Positions 7,365 to 30,629 of a DNA stretch of 42,936 nucleotides are shown here, piece after piece (position 1 is the first letter of the stretch; each line of letters opens with the position of its first letter). The position numbers and the translations under genes were made by a program. The stretch comes from Nanobdellati archaeon (GTDB lineage Archaea > EX4484-52 > WAPT01), in the NCBI GenBank assembly GCA_015520605.1, contig WAPT01000022.1, forward strand, positions 1 to 42,936, in the 5' to 3' direction. Under the pieces are notes generated by a model. It was not told the origin of the DNA and did no database searches. It saw only the letters and a program-made list of their open reading frames with translations.

Positions 7365-7489
7365 TGGCGAGCCCGGGGGGATTTGAACCCCCGACCACTG
7401 GCTCCGAAGGCCAGCGCTCTTTCCAGCCGCAGGCCACCACCACATCTGGCTGGAACGGCCTGACGGAGTCCAGACTGAGCTACGGGCCC
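7365..7489 (-). tRNA. tRNA-Arg(TCG) with intron in the D-loop
   Basis: Read on the minus strand from 7489: acceptor GGGCCCG pairs with CGGGCTC (one G-U). The D-stem is GCTC/GAGC and the anticodon arm is CTGGC-CTTCGGA-GCCAG (anticodon TCG). The T arm is GGGGG-TTCAAAT-CCCCC, with discriminator G and encoded CCA. The gene is 125 nt rather than about 77. The surplus of about 48 nt lies inside the D-loop, between TCTGGA and AGAGC. The insert contains two alternative hairpin helices, TTCCAGCC/GGCTGGAA and CAGGCC/GGCCTG, as expected for a bulge-helix-bulge intron cut by the archaeal splicing endonuclease. The exact splice sites are uncertain by a few bases. Confidence 0.9.
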
Positions 7490-19893: not shown

Positions 19894-22800
19894 TCATCTG
19901 AGCAGAGTGATCACCATACCTAACAGCGCTGTTACCACAATATTCGTGAATGAAATTCCGGGCTGCTTGACTCCGACCTCTCCTCCCTTTTTCGGAGGCA
20001 CTACAACTACTCGAAGGGATGTTGGTTGTGACGATTTGCCAGTAATCTGACTCTTTGTAGTTATATTGATCGTATAGGTACCTTCAGCATATGGCTTCAG
20101 AAGGATTGCCACCACGTGTTTCGACGCACTATTTATGATAAAAGTTCTGCACTTTGATTCAGATGAAACACCAAGCCCCATCACAAACGCTTCAATCTTA
20201 TCCTCGTACGGATTCTGAACACAAACCGTTATATTATCAGGCACAGGATTCAAGTTATAAATGATTATCGGTACGCGCATCTCTTTGACATCCGTGCTCA
20301 CTCTGATCTCCGATCCGTAAGCTGTATTTACTGGAGGAGATTTAATATTCTCAATTGCGGCACATGTATGTGTGTCAATCCTGCAAACGCCAGAATAACA
20401 TTCGTCATTTGAGGAACACGGACAGTTTGTGAACTTTTTCACCACAAACGTTCCTTTTATATTCCAAAGATTTCCGGCGCCGTCCTTGAGGTACAATGTG
20501 TAGCTGTAAGTCCCCGCACCATTACAGCTGGTGGGAGTCTTTAGTGTGCAGACATACGTATTTTCGGTCGTGTAACATTTTTTATCACTCATATTGGTCG
20601 TGAACTCCATAAATTTACATCCCGATTCATCATCACTACAGGACAGGGTAACGTTCATAAATGAGCTAGTGGAAAGGATTGGAGGTTCAATCATAACCCG
20701 ACCTGCGGGTGCCTTTTTATCTATTTTTACTGTGATGTTCTTCCAGCTCTCCGCATTACCTGCATTATCCACGCTCCTGTAAAATATCTGTTCCACGCAA
20801 GCCTCACCCTCCGGACATGTTATTGTAAGTTTAAATGGATTTTGAGTTGTTGTCTTTTTGCTCGATTCTCCCTCGCTACCGAGATAGTACTCAAGGTATC
20901 TGCAACCTGAGCCGTTGAAATCGTTGCATGTAAACCTGAGAGCAACATTCTTATTTGTCCACGGAGCTCTAATGTAATCATAATCAGTTTGGAGCTGAGT
21001 CACAGGATTTTGTTTGTCTATCCTAAATGGTTTGCTCTTCTTAACACGCTCCACGTTACCCCAATTATCAACACCATAGTAACATATTGAGTATTCATGA
21101 GCTTCATTATCTTTGCCGCGTATGGTGATCGTAACAGTATTGCTGTTCTGAGAATAGTAAGTGGTTGTGGTTGGATCTGGGCATGAGGAAGAGGCCGGAA
21201 TGAGCTTATAATATATTTTACTGCATCCTGAACCGCTCCCATCATTACATGTAAGCGTTACTGTGATATCGTGGTTCACCCAGTCTGTTCCGTTTGGTTT
21301 GATGATGGTTGTCGGCGCCTGATCGTCGATGAAGACCGATCCACACTTGGAAGTTTCAACGTTCCCCGCATTATCAACAGAGTAATAACACACCTTCCAT
21401 CTCGCCACCTGACCGGATTGAGCTGTTATAGTGAACGGACCTGTGTATTTGGTTGTTGGTGTGCATGATGATGATGTCGTCTTGCAGTAGTAAGTGGCAG
21501 CACATTTACTTGCATAAATGCTGTGGTCCGTACATGTGAAATTAATCCGAATCGTTGAGGGAGAGAGTTTGGTCTGAGTCATGTAAGTTACGGGAGCGTA
21601 TGGATCACATCTTATATACCCGTTGGTTGGGTTGTACCACCAACCGCCGATGTTGTTGTTAATATCTTTACATTTAAGTGCGAATCTAACAGAATCATAA
21701 GGCGTGGCGACAAAAGTATATGAGTTGAAAGTGTTGTTTCTCCACCCGAAGTATTGCCATTTACCGTTGTGATAGATCGCGAAGTAATATGGTTGAGATG
21801 CAAGCCCGATGTTGTCTGTGTATTCCCATGAAAGATGGAATTCACAGTTCTTAGTCCATCCCGCCGAAATAGTTGGATTGAACTTCACCAGTGTGGGTGG
21901 TTGTGTGTCCTGTGTTGTGAGAATTTCGGTACATTTTGTGTTCTCTTTATTTCCAAGTTTATCAACAGAGTAATAACACACCTTCCATCTCGCCACCTGA
22001 CCGGATTGAGCTGTTATAGTGAACGGACCTGTGTATTTGGTTGTTGGTGTGCATGATGATGATGTCGTCTTGCAGTAGTAAGTAGATGAGCAACCAACCC
22101 CCCCGGCATCACTGCACACAAAGTTGATCTCATAACCGCCGTTACTGAGTTTTGTTTTTTGTAAATATGTTGTTGGGGCGTTAGGGTCGCATCTAACATA
22201 GGATGTATCTGGCAAATACCACCAACCACCAATATTGCCTGAAGAATCTCTGCATTCCAGTGCAAACCTTACGGGGTCGTACGGCCTTGCAGTAAATTTG
22301 TGTGAGGTGGCGGTACTCCAAGAAGTATAGTGCCACTTACCTCCATAATATGTTGCTAACTTGTATGGTGTGGATGCTAACTCCGTATTATCCCTACACA
22401 ACCATTCTAGGTTATACGTGCAACTTCTACTCCATCCTTTAAGACTACCATCGTAACCGGAATAGTATTCTTCTTTGCCAAAACTGACGGAAGTTGAAAG
22501 TCCCGGATAATATTTATAGATTTTCACATAGTCCACATAACTGTATGAGCTTTTAAACTGAAGGGAAAACTTGTGGAAATCTGTTTGGATAAGCTTGACA
22601 TGTCTCGTATCAAGTCTATAATTGTTCTGCCAAATCTCCTGCTTGTTGGTATCGATATAAATTTTATAAGTGTACCAGTTTCTAAGGTAGCGAGAAGGAC
22701 AACAGCACTGCCATCCATCACAATGTCTATCGAAAAAGTGATACCAATATCTGCTTTCTGTGAGGAATGGACAAGCAAATGAGTGTGAACCGATCCAACA

Positions 22801-25800
22801 GTGGAATGAGATATCGTAGGCCCATTTGTTCGAACCCGATTTTGCTCTGACCTCAATCATCACAGGTGACTCCGAGAGATTTGCGTTGAATTCTGAGGAA
22901 ACAAGCGGCATGTTTTGACTACCCCAATCATTAGCATAGTTAATGAGATACCCGTTCCTCACACCCCAGTTCCTCACCCAATTCCATTTTGTTGTGTCCT
23001 TTCTGCTAAAATCATCGTAGAAAATAAATCTTGCAGAAATGTCACTTTCGGATGTTGCTGAAGGATTACCATAGTACATATAAAGATCTATTTTGTGATT
23101 CTTCCCGCTGGGGATGATGGGTATATTTACCCACACGGATACCTTGGTAGGGGTGCAGGATTCCAAGTAATATTTTAGTTTCTCTCCATCAAGCGTTGTG
23201 AACCTCAAATCCGCACAGTCGCTCCTCATTTTTCCAGCGGAAATTAAACGGGATGGATCAAAAACTATCTTTACTGGATAGTTTTCCAACTCTCTGTCCG
23301 TTGAAGTTGTTATCGTTATTCTCTTTCTGTAATTCCAGTAATTCTGTCTTTCGGGTAAACCGTAACGTATGAAACTACGAGTTTTCATTACAGATACGGG
23401 TGGGATATATGCGTAGACATCGGCTCTACCGCGAAGATTAGATACTGAAAATAGTCTCCACGAGGTATCACCTGGAGCAATGAAGTAGAGTCTTACACCA
23501 TCCCACCCTCCTTCCTCTTCATGCCTAACGATTAATTTATGCCAACCTTTAGAAAGGTATATTGGTCTGTGATGATAAAAGCAGAGACATGGGGGGTGGC
23601 CCCCATACCACGAAGCCACTACTTTTCCATCGATCTCCACCTCAACAGCATCATCACCATCTATGGCAAAATACCACCTCCCCGGTTTCTTAACATAGAG
23701 CCAAGTTGTGAAGAAATAATTCACATGGTCGTAGTGGTTTATACGTGGGAATATGGATATCCTGTCCACGAGTCTATACTCATATATAATATTATAAAGG
23801 TAATCATTCACGAGTCCGTTGTGATTGAATGGGTGACCTATTCTCCCACCATATCTCACGTAAAGAATCTTACCGGCATCTCCTTTTTTGTAACTATCCG
23901 GGTATTTCAACCAACCCCAAGCAGGCACCCCTTTAAAATAAACGAGCTCTGGAGGTCTAATGTCGGACCGCTTCTCTACCAACACATCACAACTGAGCCC
24001 AGCACCATCTGGACAGCAGCAACAACCCCCGCAATTATTTGGGCGTGAGGTTCCAAAGTGCATGATCCACTCGTCACCCGTGGTGGATATTTTGTATCCT
24101 CCCCTCACACCACATTCAGGTATGCCCACAACTTTCCAGTTGTTCAGGTTTATATAAAGATATCCCTCAACGGCTGCACCTCTGGCAACCCCGTAACAGC
24201 AGTCAGCATGCTCCGTCGTGCCAATAAGTCTTATCATCCATTTTGTACTACCCTCTTTTATTTTGTTTGCATACCATCCCCTATAACGGGTGCACGTGTC
24301 GCGACCTGGTAAGATATAGCACCAGTAAGCACAACACCCTCGGCATCTAGGATCCGAGGGATTAAGCCGGAAGTTAAAAGTCTCAGTATGGGTAAATTCC
24401 TTATCGAATTTTGTGCAATAAAGCTGGTTTAGATTGCCATGGGATAATGTAAACGGATGAATTGGCCCATATCGAGCTGTAACCCACTTAACACCTGCGT
24501 CAGTGCATGAAGCTGCGTGAACAACAGTAGGTGTGAGAATTATATTTACTGTTATTGATAATATTAACCCTATCAGGAAGAACACAGCAATTTTCCTACT
24601 TTCTGTATAATAGGGTTGAGGTGGCTGCGGATAATAGTATGGTGCGTGTTCCCCACCACTTTCATCTCCAGAACCGCTCTGTCGTCCTCTTTTTTCTCCT
24701 GAACTCTCCTTTTTCCTCTTCTCTTTTAAAACCAACCATACCACAACCGTTACACCTATCAGAATAATTACCACCAGCAGTATCCATTTAATTCTGTTCC
24801 CTGCTCCTTTTTCATGTGCTGTTGGAAGTCTTTGCATTTCCTTCGAGACCTCCGGGTAAGAGGGTTGTGCCCCTGCCTGTGATAGGCTTAACCTCTCTGT
24901 GATGGATGCTGGCTTTCTAACAGCATCCCCTGCATAACTTATCATAACTCTAAACTCCCCTTCCCTTTCCGCATAGGATGGCACTCTGAAGGAGACTTCG
25001 AATTTACCCGTAGCATCTGTCTCAATATCGGCGATGTGTGCCATAGAAACTTCATCATAAATGCTCAGAGGTGCGTGTGCCAAAGGTACCAAAGCCTCTT
25101 TGTTCCCGGTCTCGTAAACCACTCCTGTAATGGTCGCGTAAGTTCTGTTAAGCTTGTCCTTCCATAGGTGCTTAGAAGTTATGTTTATAACGACCAATCT
25201 TGTAGCGTTGCAGGATGGTTTTGCACCTCCTACCTCCATCTTCGCTTTTTCTACATAAAATGTAGTTTCCGCCTCCCTCAAATCTCCATCTGGGTAATAA
25301 CAGTAAAACATTATTGAATTCTTACCATCTTTACCATAAACGAAAACATCCGTATCGTTTTCTATCGTTGTATTCGGCATGTTATTTAGAGAATAGTAGC
25401 ATTTGCATCCAGTTCCATAACAACGTATCCTGACCTTAACTTCCTGGGTTTTGAATTTTGCACCGTTTTCTGGATAGACTATCAACACCCATCGCTTCTC
25501 TTTTTCTTTTAACAAATCAATACATTTTTCTGCATTGTTTATTATTTGTGTATAAAGGCATGAATTTGTGGAGTGATCATACACCCCTCCCTTATAAAGA
25601 GTCGTGCCTTCACATTTTTCAGGACAGATCTTCGAAGCATTGTAAGTCACATTTATCACATGTTCCTCTGTTCTCTTTCTCTTCACAGCACATTTTGTTG
25701 AGTTTTTGACTATTATTGAATAGAAACACGACCCTGTCGTTTTATCGTACACACCGCCCCCATAAAAAACTGTACTGATACATTTATCAGGACAACGTTG

Positions 25801-27297
25801 GATGTTCTCGTTTTTACTTGTGTTTCGTATTTCTTCCTCTTCCATCGATTGTGGGGTGCGTGAGGACATGCAGATATTGGCATTGTTGATAATAACTGTG
25901 TAAATGCAGTTGCCGGTGGAGTGATCACAGACACCATTGCTGTAGTAGGTTGTACCTTCGCACTTATCCGGGCAGGTTACGTTTGCGCACGGATTAATCT
26001 GGGTTTTGTTGGTGATACTAGGCACTTCCTTTCTGGATGATGGGGTTTTTGGTGTCGCGCCTTCTCCGGTTTTGCATTTATCTGAATTGTTGATAATAAC
26101 TGTGTAAATGCAGTTGCCGGTGGAGTGATCACAGACACCATTGCTGTAGTAGGTTGTACCTTCGCACTTATCCGGGCAGGTTACGTTTGCGCACGGATCC
26201 TTCCATCCCGGCAAACAGTCCTTTGAACAAGTTTCATAGTTCTCACCGCTCTCACAGATACCATTGCCACAAACAGGAATATTAACTTCCGGCTCCTCTA
26301 TCGGGATTCTTGAATCGACCATTAAATATATGTTGTTGCTCCCGCTCCTGTCAGAACGCCAGACGAGATAGTAATACTTGCCGTTGTAGATAAGGAATGG
26401 CTCATCATCATTTGCGGTTGAGTTTGTGATTTGAAATGGCCCCCTCCATTGACCACCATCATAGTAAATATAATGAATTTCCTCATCATATCCGGAGTAA
26501 ACTACAATATAGGTTGTGCCATTGTATGTGGCAAAACATGTACTGGCATTTTCAACTACAGGAGTTCCTCCACCGCTCATTCCCTCAAGAGTGTTTCCGG
26601 CCATGATGTAACACTTTCTTCCCTCAACCCAACTCAGCACATACTTACCGTGTGCATAGACAAGTTTCGCCTCAGTTACGCTTCTTGATAAACTTCTTAC
26701 AAAAAACGGCTTGCTCCACGATAGACCATCCCTACTTGCAGAACACTCAAGAAAATCAACCATTCCCCGCCCGGTGATCTCAAAATAATCCAACCAGCAA
26801 GCAAGATATTGAGTGCCGTTGAAAAGCAGGGAGAGACTCGCATAATCGTGACTTACGTCACTTTTAGCGAAAAGAATCGGGCCATTCCAGTTGATCCCGT
26901 CTGTTGATGAACTTACATAAATATATTTTTTTATAGAGGTTGTATTCGACCCCGCATTTATCCACGATATCCATCCAACCAGAAACCTGCCGCCCCCATA
27001 CACCACTGTTGGATAATCACTCATGTTCGCAATCCTTTGTGAAAAATTCAGGAGTTTTGATTGATTGTAAGATGAAAAAAGACCATCAATAGACCATGTC
27101 ATCCCACCCTCATCCGAAAGCCATATGATCAACGCATCCCCTTGACTGTTGATCGCGATCTCGGGACTCAGTTCGTTAGTAGCACTTTCAGTTATTTGCT
27201 GGGGTGTCGTTGCAAGGGAAAGGGTTGGTATAAAAAACAGAGTAGTGAAAATCACTACGAGAGCAAAAAATGATGAGTTTTCTTGAGATATCGCCAT
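19894..27297 (-). CDS. Giant cysteine-rich surface protein with three membrane segments
   Basis: A 2467-aa exported protein of unknown binding partner. Layout (approximate residues): signal peptide 1-32 (FALVVIFTTLFFIPTLSLA); propeller-like repeats 40-335 (sialidase/Asp-box-like SSSTDGINWNGP, SASRDGLSWSKP); Cys motif CGNGICESGENYETCSKDC; four Cys modules CPDKCEGTTYYSNGVCDHST, 365-595; Ig-like region 600-830; membrane segment 836-856 followed by KEKRKK; a Ser/Gly/Pro/Tyr-rich cytoplasmic loop; membrane segment 900-922 ending like a signal peptide (TVVHAAS); PA14-like domain 1150-1300 (WYFAIDGDDAVEVEIDG, GWHKLIVRHEEEGGWDGVRL); DUF2341 1318-1430; a lectin-like region to about 1620; repeated Cys modules; C-terminal membrane segment. 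Charges around the segments put both large parts outside the cell. The TATA box fits a leaderless start at ATG 27297; ATG 27306 is possible. It may have arisen by fusion of two surface protein genes. Confidence 0.85.
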   Translation of the reverse strand: MAISQENSSFFALVVIFTTLFFIPTLSLATTPQQITESATNELSPEIAINSQGDALIIWLSDEGGMTWSIDGLFSSYNQSKLLNFSQRIANMSDYPTVVYGGGRFLVGWISWINAGSNTTSIKKYIYVSSSTDGINWNGPILFAKSDVSHDYASLSLLFNGTQYLACWLDYFEITGRGMVDFLECSASRDGLSWSKPFFVRSLSRSVTEAKLVYAHGKYVLSWVEGRKCYIMAGNTLEGMSGGGTPVVENASTCFATYNGTTYIVVYSGYDEEIHYIYYDGGQWRGPFQITNSTANDDEPFLIYNGKYYYLVWRSDRSGSNNIYLMVDSRIPIEEPEVNIPVCGNGICESGENYETCSKDCLPGWKDPCANVTCPDKCEGTTYYSNGVCDHSTGNCIYTVIINNSDKCKTGEGATPKTPSSRKEVPSITNKTQINPCANVTCPDKCEGTTYYSNGVCDHSTGNCIYTVIINNANICMSSRTPQSMEEEEIRNTSKNENIQRCPDKCISTVFYGGGVYDKTTGSCFYSIIVKNSTKCAVKRKRTEEHVINVTYNASKICPEKCEGTTLYKGGVYDHSTNSCLYTQIINNAEKCIDLLKEKEKRWVLIVYPENGAKFKTQEVKVRIRCYGTGCKCYYSLNNMPNTTIENDTDVFVYGKDGKNSIMFYCYYPDGDLREAETTFYVEKAKMEVGGAKPSCNATRLVVINITSKHLWKDKLNRTYATITGVVYETGNKEALVPLAHAPLSIYDEVSMAHIADIETDATGKFEVSFRVPSYAEREGEFRVMISYAGDAVRKPASITERLSLSQAGAQPSYPEVSKEMQRLPTAHEKGAGNRIKWILLVVIILIGVTVVVWLVLKEKRKKESSGEKRGRQSGSGDESGGEHAPYYYPQPPQPYYTESRKIAVFFLIGLILSITVNIILTPTVVHAASCTDAGVKWVTARYGPIHPFTLSHGNLNQLYCTKFDKEFTHTETFNFRLNPSDPRCRGCCAYWCYILPGRDTCTRYRGWYANKIKEGSTKWMIRLIGTTEHADCCYGVARGAAVEGYLYINLNNWKVVGIPECGVRGGYKISTTGDEWIMHFGTSRPNNCGGCCCCPDGAGLSCDVLVEKRSDIRPPELVYFKGVPAWGWLKYPDSYKKGDAGKILYVRYGGRIGHPFNHNGLVNDYLYNIIYEYRLVDRISIFPRINHYDHVNYFFTTWLYVKKPGRWYFAIDGDDAVEVEIDGKVVASWYGGHPPCLCFYHHRPIYLSKGWHKLIVRHEEEGGWDGVRLYFIAPGDTSWRLFSVSNLRGRADVYAYIPPVSVMKTRSFIRYGLPERQNYWNYRKRITITTSTDRELENYPVKIVFDPSRLISAGKMRSDCADLRFTTLDGEKLKYYLESCTPTKVSVWVNIPIIPSGKNHKIDLYMYYGNPSATSESDISARFIFYDDFSRKDTTKWNWVRNWGVRNGYLINYANDWGSQNMPLVSSEFNANLSESPVMIEVRAKSGSNKWAYDISFHCWIGSHSFACPFLTESRYWYHFFDRHCDGWQCCCPSRYLRNWYTYKIYIDTNKQEIWQNNYRLDTRHVKLIQTDFHKFSLQFKSSYSYVDYVKIYKYYPGLSTSVSFGKEEYYSGYDGSLKGWSRSCTYNLEWLCRDNTELASTPYKLATYYGGKWHYTSWSTATSHKFTARPYDPVRFALECRDSSGNIGGWWYLPDTSYVRCDPNAPTTYLQKTKLSNGGYEINFVCSDAGGVGCSSTYYCKTTSSSCTPTTKYTGPFTITAQSGQVARWKVCYYSVDKLGNKENTKCTEILTTQDTQPPTLVKFNPTISAGWTKNCEFHLSWEYTDNIGLASQPYYFAIYHNGKWQYFGWRNNTFNSYTFVATPYDSVRFALKCKDINNNIGGWWYNPTNGYIRCDPYAPVTYMTQTKLSPSTIRINFTCTDHSIYASKCAATYYCKTTSSSCTPTTKYTGPFTITAQSGQVARWKVCYYSVDNAGNVETSKCGSVFIDDQAPTTIIKPNGTDWVNHDITVTLTCNDGSGSGCSKIYYKLIPASSSCPDPTTTTYYSQNSNTVTITIRGKDNEAHEYSICYYGVDNWGNVERVKKSKPFRIDKQNPVTQLQTDYDYIRAPWTNKNVALRFTCNDFNGSGCRYLEYYLGSEGESSKKTTTQNPFKLTITCPEGEACVEQIFYRSVDNAGNAESWKNITVKIDKKAPAGRVMIEPPILSTSSFMNVTLSCSDDESGCKFMEFTTNMSDKKCYTTENTYVCTLKTPTSCNGAGTYSYTLYLKDGAGNLWNIKGTFVVKKFTNCPCSSNDECYSGVCRIDTHTCAAIENIKSPPVNTAYGSEIRVSTDVKEMRVPIIIYNLNPVPDNITVCVQNPYEDKIEAFVMGLGVSSESKCRTFIINSASKHVVAILLKPYAEGTYTINITTKSQITGKSSQPTSLRVVVVPPKKGGEVGVKQPGISFTNIVVTALLGMVITLLR
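21371..21495 (-). repeat. 125-bp perfect direct repeat, copy 1 (in the surface protein gene)
   Basis: Identical base for base to 21959-22083, 588 bp (196 codons) away and in the same frame. It encodes the Cys module including YYCKTTSSSCTPTTKYTGPF. The flanking parts of the two modules are clearly diverged, so the identity is sharply bounded. Confidence 0.9.
21959..22083 (-). repeat. 125-bp perfect direct repeat, copy 2
   Basis: Second copy of the repeat at 21371-21495. The boundary bases differ immediately at both ends. Confidence 0.9.
25882..25994 (-). repeat. 113-bp perfect direct repeat, copy 1 (N-terminal Cys modules)
   Basis: Identical to 26086-26198, 204 bp (68 codons) away and in frame. 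It encodes NPCANVTCPDKCEGTTYYSN and the start of the following module. Two further modules of the same type (about 25515-25625 and 25700-25796) are diverged. Confidence 0.9.
26086..26198 (-). repeat. 113-bp perfect direct repeat, copy 2
   Basis: Second copy of the repeat at 25882-25994. Confidence 0.9.
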
Positions 27298-27310
27298 AGG
27301 ATACATTGGG

Positions 27311-27330
27311 ATAAAAAAATATATAAAAAT
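27311..27330. promoter_or_regulatory. Shared TATA region for two divergent genes
   Basis: ATAAAAAAATATATAAAAAT is usable on both strands. Its centre lies about 26 nt before the surface-protein ATG at 27297 and about 35 nt before the DUF131 ATG at 27358. Confidence 0.5.
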
Positions 27331-27357
27331 TTCAACCAATGAGAGTAGAAATGAAGT

Positions 27358-28160: not shown

Positions 28161-28293
28161 GGGGCCGTGGTGTAGCTTGGTTATCATTCCGGCTTTGGGA
28201 GCCGGTGACCCCGGTTCAAATACCGCCAGAGTGAAAGATGTGGTGTGCTGCTTGGCTTCCAACTGCTGGCGGTTGTGATTCCGGGCGGCCCCA
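28161..28293 (+). tRNA. tRNA-Pro(TGG) with intron in the T-loop
   Basis: Acceptor GGGGCCG pairs with CGGCCCC (28286-28292), discriminator A, no encoded CCA. The anticodon arm is CCGGC-TTTGGGA-GCCGG (anticodon TGG). The T-stem CCCGG pairs with CCGGG (28281-28285), but the T-loop TTCAAAT is followed by about 59 extra bases (about 28222-28280). That insert starts with ACCGCCAG and ends with CTGGCGGT plus 8 bases, a perfect 8-bp helix that would present a bulge-helix-bulge motif to the splicing endonuclease. The intron thus sits near position 59/60, not in the usual anticodon-loop site. The exact cut sites are uncertain by one or two bases because the borders share T. Confidence 0.92.
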
Positions 28294-28295
28294 TT

Positions 28296-30629
28296 TCATT
28301 TTCTGAAGAGTCTGTGCCTGTGTTTTAGGAGTTCAAGAAACGCCATTCTTTCATACCTTGCGACCAGATATTTTGTGTGTGCAAGCCTGTCTTTTTCCAC
28401 GAAAATACAGTCAACACCGTGTTCCACGAGAAGTTTCAGCACGTCCACGCCTGTGCTAAGCTTACCCTTTACCATGACTTTGAGATTGTGCTCGTTCAGA
28501 TGCTCCATGCCAGCAGAGATCAGGTTGAGAAATCCCTTATGTGTTGACAGACCCGTATTCGGCTCAGCGGTATTGAAAGCATGCATCGCCACCCTGTCCA
28601 CATCAAGCAAAATTGTTTTGATTCCCGCCCTGGATATGATTTCTCCCATGAACAGTCCGCCCGGTCTGTCTATGAGCACGCTTATCCTCGCACATCCCTT
28701 GTTCAGATGGGAGTGCTTGAGAATGGATGATACATTCTCGAACTCATGCGGCAGAACGAAAGAAGGTAAAACGATGCCCACATTTCTGTACCCTTTCATG
28801 AGGAGTTGCGATACTGCTCCCAGCTGCGCAAATACGTCAGCTCCCGTATCCGGATTGAGGCACTCCACCCAAAATGGCGTTCTGAAGTTATCCCTTAAAA
28901 TCCTCGTGAACGCACCGCTCAACCTGAGGATCTTGTTATCTCCAATCTTCACACTTTCTTCGTGAGTGTAAGGTGTTGAAAAAATGACCCCATTACTCCC
29001 GAGCACATTCTCGAAAGCTTCTCGAGCTATAAGCACACTTTCAAAGAAGGCCGGTAGATCCTCGCTCTCTATATTTTTGAGGAGCACACCGACCTTAACC
29101 GCGGTTATCAGATCAGCAAGACGTTCCGCCACATCATCAACTCTCAAACTGGAAACAGCCTCCACCTCCGGAATTGTTCTGCTCATCTCCACATTCTTAT
29201 AAACCGCAGCTGAATCAAAACCAGAAAGAAGATCCTGCTGCTGGAACACTGTAACCTGATTGTTCTTTGGATCAAACTTCACCCCATCACCGTCCCCGAT
29301 CAAGGATGTATCGTTAACAAGACAGACAGCCCTTCCCCTATAAGCCAGCCACAGGGAAAGCCTCGATGTCAGACCCCCTACAGCTGAAATCACTCCCTTT
29401 ACGCAATCGGATATGATGACATAATCAGGAGATAGTGCCGGAATGATCACCACCACACCCTTAGGGTGTTGAGCGCATCTGCCCTTAAATGACGTTATTT
29501 CTCCAGAAGATTTCAGAGACAGGGCAGTAGCCACCTCCTCTTTAGGCATCAGGAATCTTGCATCGCTTATGACCTTCCCTCCTGAAGAAGCTGCTGCAGG
29601 AGTTTGTGTGGTTGCATTTTCCGTTTCTCTCTCCGCTGAACAGTTCAAAAAATCAATGGGAGTTATTGAAACCACATGAGGTCTGCCTCTCTGAAAGGCA
29701 ATATCGACCAGACAGTTCCAGCCAAGTTTAGTATCTATCTCTTTCAGAATTTCTCCTACTGAGCGCAGCTCCTCCTGACTGAGGGATGGAGATCTCTCCA
29801 AAGAACCGTTCAGAGCTTCCCGCCTCAGCTCTGTCTTTATGGGATCTGCAGCATATAGATATCGCTTTTCAGCCACACCCTTTTCAAGAACGGAAAACTC
29901 CTCCTTTGAGATAACGAAGTAATCCGGTTTGAACTCGCCGTACGTCAATGGCAACCCGAAACCGTAACAAGATTCAATGTAGTAACTGTCCCTGTCGCGG
30001 TTAAGCGGGTTGAAGGTGAAAGCTCTGCAGGTCTTTTCAGCGTTAACCATCTCCTGAACCACCACGCTGACCTTGAATGAACTGGCCCCAACCTTCTTAA
30101 GCATGTATACGTTCTCAGCCTGAAAAGCATCCATCCAAGCGCGAAGCACCGCATTCTTCAGCGTGTTTATTCCCCTGACGTTATAGATCGCCTTGGAGAA
30201 GACAAAAGGTGCATCCCCAAACACGGTTTTGACAACGACCTTCGAGTCACCACGGGCAGCAGAAACGAGACTCTTTATCTTCTCGCTCAGCTCATAAACA
30301 TCCTCGTGCATGCTCATTCTCTGATAAGCCTCCCTGAGTTCATTCAAGAAATTATCAGGAAACCTTCCGGAAAAAATAGTCTTCTGCATCCTCTTCGACA
30401 TATTGTCAAGCTCAAGGACATCTTCTTCATTAAGCGTGCGGTAATCTCTATGCAGCGCTTCTCCAATGCCGTTGTAGCGCACGAACTCGTAGAAAACGGA
30501 AGGAGTTATTATAAAACATTTTGGCACGGGAAGCTCGGCTTTACTACACATGGCAAGTGCAACTATCTTCTCCCCCAAAAACTGCTCGTGCTCCTTATCA
30601 ACATCCTTAAGCCATATTATTCCCGGCAT
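28296..30629 (-). CDS. Degenerate PEP synthase-like protein, probable non-catalytic paralogue
   Basis: A 777-aa protein with the order of PEP synthase/PPDK: an ATP-grasp-like N-terminal part (IIWLKDVDKEHEQFLGEKIV, LPVPKCFIITPSVFYEFV, VVQEMVNAEKTCRAFTFNPL), a swivelling domain (about 350-440) and a C-terminal barrel (LSGAFTRILRDNFRTPFWVE, VGIVLPSFV). Key catalytic features are missing. The phospho-histidine motif GGxTCHAAI reads GGLTSRLSL (418-426), with His replaced by Arg423. The nucleotide-binding SVRSS motif is not recognisable. The C-terminal CGQ cysteine region reads MVKGKLST. The frame is intact over its whole length, so it is maintained rather than decayed. It may bind ligands or regulate a true PEP synthase. 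Its stop lies 2 nt from the end of tRNA-Pro. Confidence 0.8.
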   Translation of the reverse strand: MPGIIWLKDVDKEHEQFLGEKIVALAMCSKAELPVPKCFIITPSVFYEFVRYNGIGEALHRDYRTLNEEDVLELDNMSKRMQKTIFSGRFPDNFLNELREAYQRMSMHEDVYELSEKIKSLVSAARGDSKVVVKTVFGDAPFVFSKAIYNVRGINTLKNAVLRAWMDAFQAENVYMLKKVGASSFKVSVVVQEMVNAEKTCRAFTFNPLNRDRDSYYIESCYGFGLPLTYGEFKPDYFVISKEEFSVLEKGVAEKRYLYAADPIKTELRREALNGSLERSPSLSQEELRSVGEILKEIDTKLGWNCLVDIAFQRGRPHVVSITPIDFLNCSAERETENATTQTPAAASSGGKVISDARFLMPKEEVATALSLKSSGEITSFKGRCAQHPKGVVVIIPALSPDYVIISDCVKGVISAVGGLTSRLSLWLAYRGRAVCLVNDTSLIGDGDGVKFDPKNNQVTVFQQQDLLSGFDSAAVYKNVEMSRTIPEVEAVSSLRVDDVAERLADLITAVKVGVLLKNIESEDLPAFFESVLIAREAFENVLGSNGVIFSTPYTHEESVKIGDNKILRLSGAFTRILRDNFRTPFWVECLNPDTGADVFAQLGAVSQLLMKGYRNVGIVLPSFVLPHEFENVSSILKHSHLNKGCARISVLIDRPGGLFMGEIISRAGIKTILLDVDRVAMHAFNTAEPNTGLSTHKGFLNLISAGMEHLNEHNLKVMVKGKLSTGVDVLKLLVEHGVDCIFVEKDRLAHTKYLVARYERMAFLELLKHRHRLFRK

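Follow-up and report, generated by a model that had tools for sequence, protein, structure and literature searches.

We are highly confident that the tRNA-Pro(TGG) gene described here, the only one for this tRNA that we detected in its genome, carries an archaeal BHB intron at T-loop position 59/60, and that it belongs to a clade in which such introns are often gained, lost and copied between tRNA genes. The splicing itself and the molecular route of the copying are what we infer. The gene lies on contig 22 (analysed over its 42,936 nucleotides and called the window below) of G000, a 0.86-Mb, 91%-complete archaeal DPANN MAG. Comparisons were made with a sister species (G002), a congener (G001), a genome of another lineage (G103) and a genome of the f3 genus (G019). 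In the endonuclease search, the relatives of G000 were MAGs labelled Nanohaloarchaea, Nanohalarchaeota or Aenigmatarchaeota. The parts of the gene, all on the forward strand, are the following.

28161-28293, + strand: tRNA-Pro(TGG) with its intron (direct sequence).
28161-28220, + strand: 5' exon, tRNA positions 1-59, with acceptor, D-arm, anticodon TGG, 5' strand of the T-stem and TTCAAA (direct sequence; acceptor 7/7 paired; exon 100% identical in G002).
28221-28279, + strand: 59-nt intron at T-loop 59/60 (BHB-like fold; excision gives a regular 74-nt tRNA; eight other G000 tRNA genes are interrupted there).
28222-28229, + strand: 5' arm of the intron's inner helix (h'), ACCGCCAG (exact complement of 28266-28273; same in G002).
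28266-28273, + strand: 3' arm of the inner helix (h'), CTGGCGGT (exact complement of 28222-28229; same in G002).
28215-28221, + strand: TTCA, the exon strand of the central helix, followed by the 5' bulge AA^T, where the 5' cut is predicted (62 T-loop introns of the clade share this register; here 3/4 pairs).
28274-28280, + strand: TGTG, the intron strand of the central helix, followed by the 3' bulge AT^T, where the 3' cut is predicted (family register; a competing minimum-energy register is UCA:UGA).
28280-28293, + strand: 3' exon, from position 60 to discriminator A73, with no encoded CCA (direct sequence).

With slashes for the intron junctions, the gene reads GGGGCCG...CCCGGTTCAAA / TACCGCCAG...CTGGCGGTTGTGAT / TCCGGGCGGCCCCA. 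The initial annotation had proposed both the T-loop intron and a T-stem split by an insert with exactly complementary arms, and on both points it was right. The strands CCCGG (28210-28214) and CCGGG (28281-28285) are separated by TTCAAA, 59 nt and T; once the insert is removed, the T-arm becomes CCCGG-TTCAAAT-CCGGG in a 74-nt tRNA with seven of seven acceptor pairs, and the two 8-nt arms make up a perfect 8-bp inverted repeat. Its insert length of 59 nt also stands, while its borders (ACCG...GATT) are one base off those predicted from the BHB (TACCG...TGTGAT); the mature tRNA is the same either way.

In the precursor, the T-stem would serve as the outer helix. The TTCR of the T-loop would make the central helix with YGAA towards the 3' end of the intron, a pairing that is loose in this gene, and the inner helix would come from the two arms within the intron. 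The splicing endonuclease is predicted to cut in both 3-nt bulges, AAT and ATT in tRNA-Pro(TGG), after which RtcB would join the exons. Both 3-nt bulges fit the motif. Since the central helix TTCA:TGTG has only three of its four pairs, and since free folding favours UCA:UGA in a register slightly shifted from that of the family, we regard this BHB as a relaxed one. Compared with dinucleotide shuffles, the intron hairpin has z = -2.57 (4/200 shuffles were equally good).

Across the family, T-loop positions 54-57 (TTCR) pair with intron positions -6 to -3 (YGAA), the T-stem is the outer helix, and the two 3-nt bulges consist of positions 58-59 with the first intron base, and of the last two intron bases with position 60. 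The full 4-bp central helix is found in 56 of 62 T-loop introns of the clade, a count biased because the search pattern for several of them already dictated three of the helix's four bases, and in seven of the nine 59/60 introns of G000, to which this bias does not apply. The base at -6 is outside the search pattern with which many of the 62 introns were collected, and it covaries with the host as the BHB pairing predicts: hosts with A57 have T(-6) in 35 introns and C in none, and those with G57 have C(-6) in 13 and T in 10 (Fisher p = 4e-7, an optimistic value given that some of the introns are related). Within the f3 genus, the introns of one family have TGAA in TTCA hosts and CGAA in TTCG hosts. 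Together with the constant helix and diverged loop in G000 and G002, this covariation indicates that the pairing between intron and exon has been maintained in evolution.

Neither ARAGORN nor Rfam at its gathering score calls the tRNA-Pro(TGG) gene, and the Rfam tRNA model detects it at E = 0.08 only. This is because the intron breaks the T-arm. The same silence could be taken to mean that the copy is a pseudogene or an assembly artefact and its insert junk in a dead gene, which we consider extremely improbable. The gene recurs in the independent MAG of the sister species with 95% identity; the 16 mismatches are ungapped and all intronic (positions 83-102 on the loop side, plus one bulge base), while neither the exons nor the inner helix differ, which is what one would expect if the intron works. 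Further, eight other genes of G000 are interrupted at 59/60, and several of these are sole isoacceptors. The initial annotation had seen an objection to its reading in a normal tRNA-Pro(TGG) elsewhere; we looked for a second one in the 91%-complete assembly and found none. Given the conservation in the sister species and the same site being interrupted in the eight other genes, the insert is not a matter of chance. Nor is it a self-splicing intron of group I or II: Rfam gives no intron match in the window, and the insert has 59 nt where hundreds would be expected.

The neighbourhood deserves a brief mention. A gene for a 777-aa protein with only the N-terminal PPDK ATP-binding domain (28296-30629, reverse strand) has its 3' end 3 nt from the 3' end of the tRNA gene. 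A 2481-codon ORF with a DUF2341 domain (19894-27339, reverse strand) probably encodes a giant surface protein.

The window has one more tRNA gene.

7368-7489, reverse strand: tRNA-Arg(TCG) with a D-loop intron of about 47 nt (same gene and intron in G002, L335).

Thus both tRNA genes of the window have introns at non-canonical sites, as had been claimed. We extended the tabulation beyond the window, gathering tRNA genes by a family search, by T-loop pattern searches and by a script that pairs acceptor and T-stem. This yielded 37 tRNA genes in G000, 20 of them intronless and 17 carrying 20 introns: nine at 59/60, nine in the anticodon loop, one in the D-loop and one in the variable region.

Introns of G000 at 59/60: Pro-TGG, Arg-GCG, Ser-CGA, Ser-GGA, Ser-GCT, Leu-CAG, Leu-TAA, Ala-GGC, Ile-TAT.
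Introns of G000 at 37/38: Thr-TGT, Tyr, Trp, Lys-CTT, Leu-CAA, elongator Met, Leu-TAA, Ala-GGC, Ile-TAT.

Leu-TAA, Ala-GGC and Ile-TAT have both. Anticodons that the script misread were assigned by eye: Arg-GCG (L070), Leu-GAG (L074), Arg-TCG (L026) and their counterparts in G001 and G002. Family, pattern and region searches of G000 did not find tRNAs Ala-TGC, Arg-TCT/CCT/CCG, Asp, Glu-TTC, His, Lys-TTT and Thr-CGT; genes with unusual T-loops may have been missed by these searches. Many of the tRNA genes with T-loop introns are missed by the tRNA finders that we used, so the number of tRNAs in genomes of this kind may be underestimated.

Some particular genes are worth recording. The tRNA-Leu(GAG) of G000 (L074, G000:C3:34350-34500) has an intron in the anticodon-stem/variable region, and that of G001 (L317, C2) has one there plus a T-loop intron. 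A tRNA-Ile with anticodon TAT is present in G000 (L108, C3) and in G001 (L266, C2), and TiaS (PF08489) is absent from G000, G001, G002, G019 and G103 in a search in which control archaea were positive. We think it probable that a UAU tRNA, not an agmatidine-modified tRNA-Ile2(CAU), decodes AUA.

T-loop introns are more frequent in the congener. There, 22 of 37 parsed tRNA genes have 59/60 introns, or about 22 of 33 in the archaeal fraction, from which four bacterial-looking tRNAs on the small contig C11 are left out. These four are clustered and intronless (G001:C11:168-495, L321), and their tRNA-Tyr has a long variable arm of the bacterial type; the contig is likely a contaminant or viral contig in this MAG. 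The T-loop site is therefore used in a quarter (G000) to two thirds (G001) of the tRNA genes found. It is as common as the canonical site in G000 and dominant in G001. A search of 151 archaeal genomes for the signature GGTTCRAA-N-GAAAATCC gave 15 matches in G001, 10 in G103 and five in each of G000 and G002; most of the order has it too, and the reversed signature gave nearly none. The matches include chance ones outside tRNA genes, and introns were counted only where the full tRNA context was present. Since TTCRAA and the T-stem are features of nearly every tRNA, introns ending in YGAAAA would fit almost any tRNA at 59/60.

The initial annotation further suggested frequent intron gain, or active spread, in this lineage. 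Regarding the lineage, frequent gain or turnover is supported, already by the 11 non-canonical introns among 37 genes of G000 and the 22 T-loop introns among about 33 archaeal genes of G001. Regarding the tRNA-Pro(TGG) intron itself, active spread is not what we see. The only gene sharing it is the tRNA-Pro(TGG) of the sister species, the G001 Pro(TGG) introns are largely different in sequence, and no intron of G000 is significantly related to it (best p = 0.06 by comparison with dinucleotide shuffles).

A case of gain or loss is tRNA-Ala(GGC). Its 5-kb loci are colinear in G000 and G002 (about 90% identity) and in G001 (71%). The gene has a 49-bp intron at 59/60 in G000, and this intron is precisely absent, with no scar, from G002, where the exons are identical. 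In G001 the site is occupied by a 46-nt intron that is unrelated to it and resembles that of the tRNA-Thr(GGT) of G001 (81% identity for introns against 76% for bodies). We had also considered tRNA-Glu(CTC) in G000 and G002 as a clean case, and dropped it, since the flanks differ as well, owing to an integrated element.

For the copying, intron interiors were scored against dinucleotide shuffles after removal of their constrained ends. In G001, 4 of 190 intron pairs reach p <= 0.001, where 0.19 are expected; they include Cys/Pro-TGG (introns 82%, bodies 68%) and Glu-TTC/Gly-TCC (84% against 72%). In G103, 4 of 28 pairs do so, for example Phe/Thr(TGT), where the introns are 88% identical with bodies at 65%. 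In the f3 genus it is 27 of 36 pairs, some being orthologues between species; the Glu and Gly introns of G019 are 89% identical and the bodies 61%. Near-identical introns in bodies that are less alike mean that intron sequences have moved between non-cognate tRNAs. Within G000 no pair is significant, hence the tRNA-Pro(TGG) intron has not been caught copying.

It might be argued that the T-loop introns are an old, vertically inherited DPANN set subject to loss only, with neither gain nor copying. Indeed many 59/60 introns are common to orthologues of G000 and G002 (Pro-TGG, Arg-GCG, three Ser, two Leu), and recombination with a spliced copy would also account for the scar-free difference in Ala(GGC). 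However, between orthologues of these two genomes and of G001 the introns at this site are often non-homologous (Pro-TGG, Ala-GGC, Glu-CTC), and near-identical introns occur in non-cognate tRNAs of three lineages at an identity exceeding that of the bodies. Loss alone is sufficient for neither observation, and we find this explanation quite improbable. We thus keep to gain, loss and copying. A copying route by way of a resident reverse transcriptase was considered and rejected, since PF00078 has no match in five genomes, with a positive control; DNA-level recombination between tRNA genes is our default guess.

Selection of another kind may be imagined, in which the introns are kept because they break the T-arm/3' half of integrase attachment sites and so hinder integration of mobile elements. 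Randau and Soell had this idea for split tRNAs, as reported in PMC4033280. The element mentioned above bears on it in two ways. It is a 5.45-kb insertion at the tRNA-Glu(CTC) of G002 (G002:C17, L350:5011-10491) that encodes a tyrosine integrase and a PIN protein. In favour of the idea, the att repeat of 25-27 bp comprises only the 3' strand of the acceptor and the flank, downstream of the T-loop intron. But the element, a single case, does sit at an intron-bearing gene, hence the intron does not prevent integration. We consider protection from integration unlikely as the reason why the introns are kept, and return to introns that turn over by gain, loss and copying.

Each of G000, G001, G002 and G019 has one PF01974 endonuclease gene (L012:1614-2198 on C15 in G000), and no credible second match was found in them at E <= 10. 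Neither a second EndA subunit nor a fused three-unit protein, as in the broad-specificity (alpha-beta)2 and epsilon2 enzymes, was found; there is one 195-aa gene. RtcB is likewise encoded by one gene per genome tested; in G103 (C29:5794-7086) its frame has one in-frame TAG, which may reflect read-through, recoding or error. The model of EndA (pLDDT 83, pTM 0.81) matches best M. jannaschii 1a79 (Foldseek E 9e-16, TM 0.88 by target) and also A. pernix 3p1z.

Across about 70 sequences of the clade, with the alignment register fixed by Y236/H251/K282 of ARMAN-2 (PMC6379350), the catalytic Tyr and His are present, and Ala, Ser or Thr occupies the position of the catalytic Lys. The distance from Tyr to His is 17-18 residues, against 11-12 in Methanolobus and others, owing to a Lys-rich insertion of 6-8 residues in which the lysines are invariant or nearly so. 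We rejected the possibility that this insertion is the crenarchaea-specific loop, since ARMAN-2 (K161; triad Y236/H251/K282, PMC6379350) puts CSL/ASL elsewhere. The segment between the G-K strand and the next helix (GKWIEEEKVKFL) is longer than that of M. jannaschii and shorter than ASL/CSL. A strict rule that the insertion occurs if and only if the Lys is lost was dropped as well, because five DPANN/euryarchaeal sequences (L186, L190-L193) have Thr and no insertion.

According to published reports, cleavage by homomeric EndAs of archaea is restricted to canonical BHBs (PMC6379350, PMC4033280), and relaxed ones are cut well only by (alpha-beta)2 and epsilon2 enzymes (PMC6379350). Given one EndA gene, this means either that a single subunit serves both strict and relaxed sites, or that a partner has gone unrecognised. 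We assume that the single-subunit EndA cuts the relaxed tRNA-Pro(TGG) site efficiently. A bolder proposal would be that the T-loop is a universal landing site for tiny non-autonomous introns, copied without reverse transcriptase and tolerated thanks to a shifted active site of EndA, in which the Lys-rich Tyr-His loop replaces the lost triad Lys and widens specificity. In this full form we think it rather unlikely. If it is true that a single-subunit EndA without the canonical Lys splices these introns, the rule connecting subunit type, triad and specificity needs revision.

How much of this is novel? BHB introns at 59/60 and intron transposition are already known in Crenarchaeota. A DPANN clade dominated by one intron site, and an unusual single EndA gene, appear to be new as judged from the sequences, and we found no papers on such introns in this clade in the open-licence literature searched. 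Gain of archaeal tRNA introns has so far had one well-documented lineage, the Thermoproteales. A second, unrelated lineage, with one site hit repeatedly, a sister pair with and without the intron, and shared introns, makes gain directly testable. The T-loop may be preferred because nearly every tRNA offers an identical exon part of the splicing motif there.

In comparison with the EndA types alpha4, alpha'2, (alpha-beta)2 and epsilon2 (PMC6379350), the clade enzyme shares the fold and the catalytic Tyr and His. It differs in being a single 195-aa gene product with no second subunit detected, in the Tyr-His insertion, and in the Ala at the position of Lys156 of M. jannaschii and Lys282 of ARMAN-2, even though a review describes the triad as conserved in all four types (PMC6379350). 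The EndAs of N. equitans and ARMAN-2 also have a longer Tyr-His loop, but keep the catalytic Lys. An EndA that lacks the canonical Lys and has a Lys-rich insertion between Tyr and His would seem to be described here for the first time.

As to the introns, BHB introns at non-canonical positions, including 59/60, go back to Marck and Grosjean, as listed in PMC4090602. Those of the present clade have the same site, size class and BHB architecture, and would in principle be removed by EndA and RtcB; whereas the known rich sources are Crenarchaeota, Nanoarchaeota and Thaumarchaeota, the host here is a DPANN lineage of Nanohalarchaeota/Aenigmatarchaeota type. Transposition of introns was described in 2010, and according to the summaries in PMC4090602 and PMC4033280 it likewise concerned very similar introns in isoacceptors whose bodies are not closely related. 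In Thermoproteales, which average 0.84 introns per tRNA gene (PMC8450103), the introns occupy many positions; here the copying is centred on one site, where the exon TTCRAA is nearly constant in all tRNAs, and two sister species provide a scar-free pair with and without the intron.
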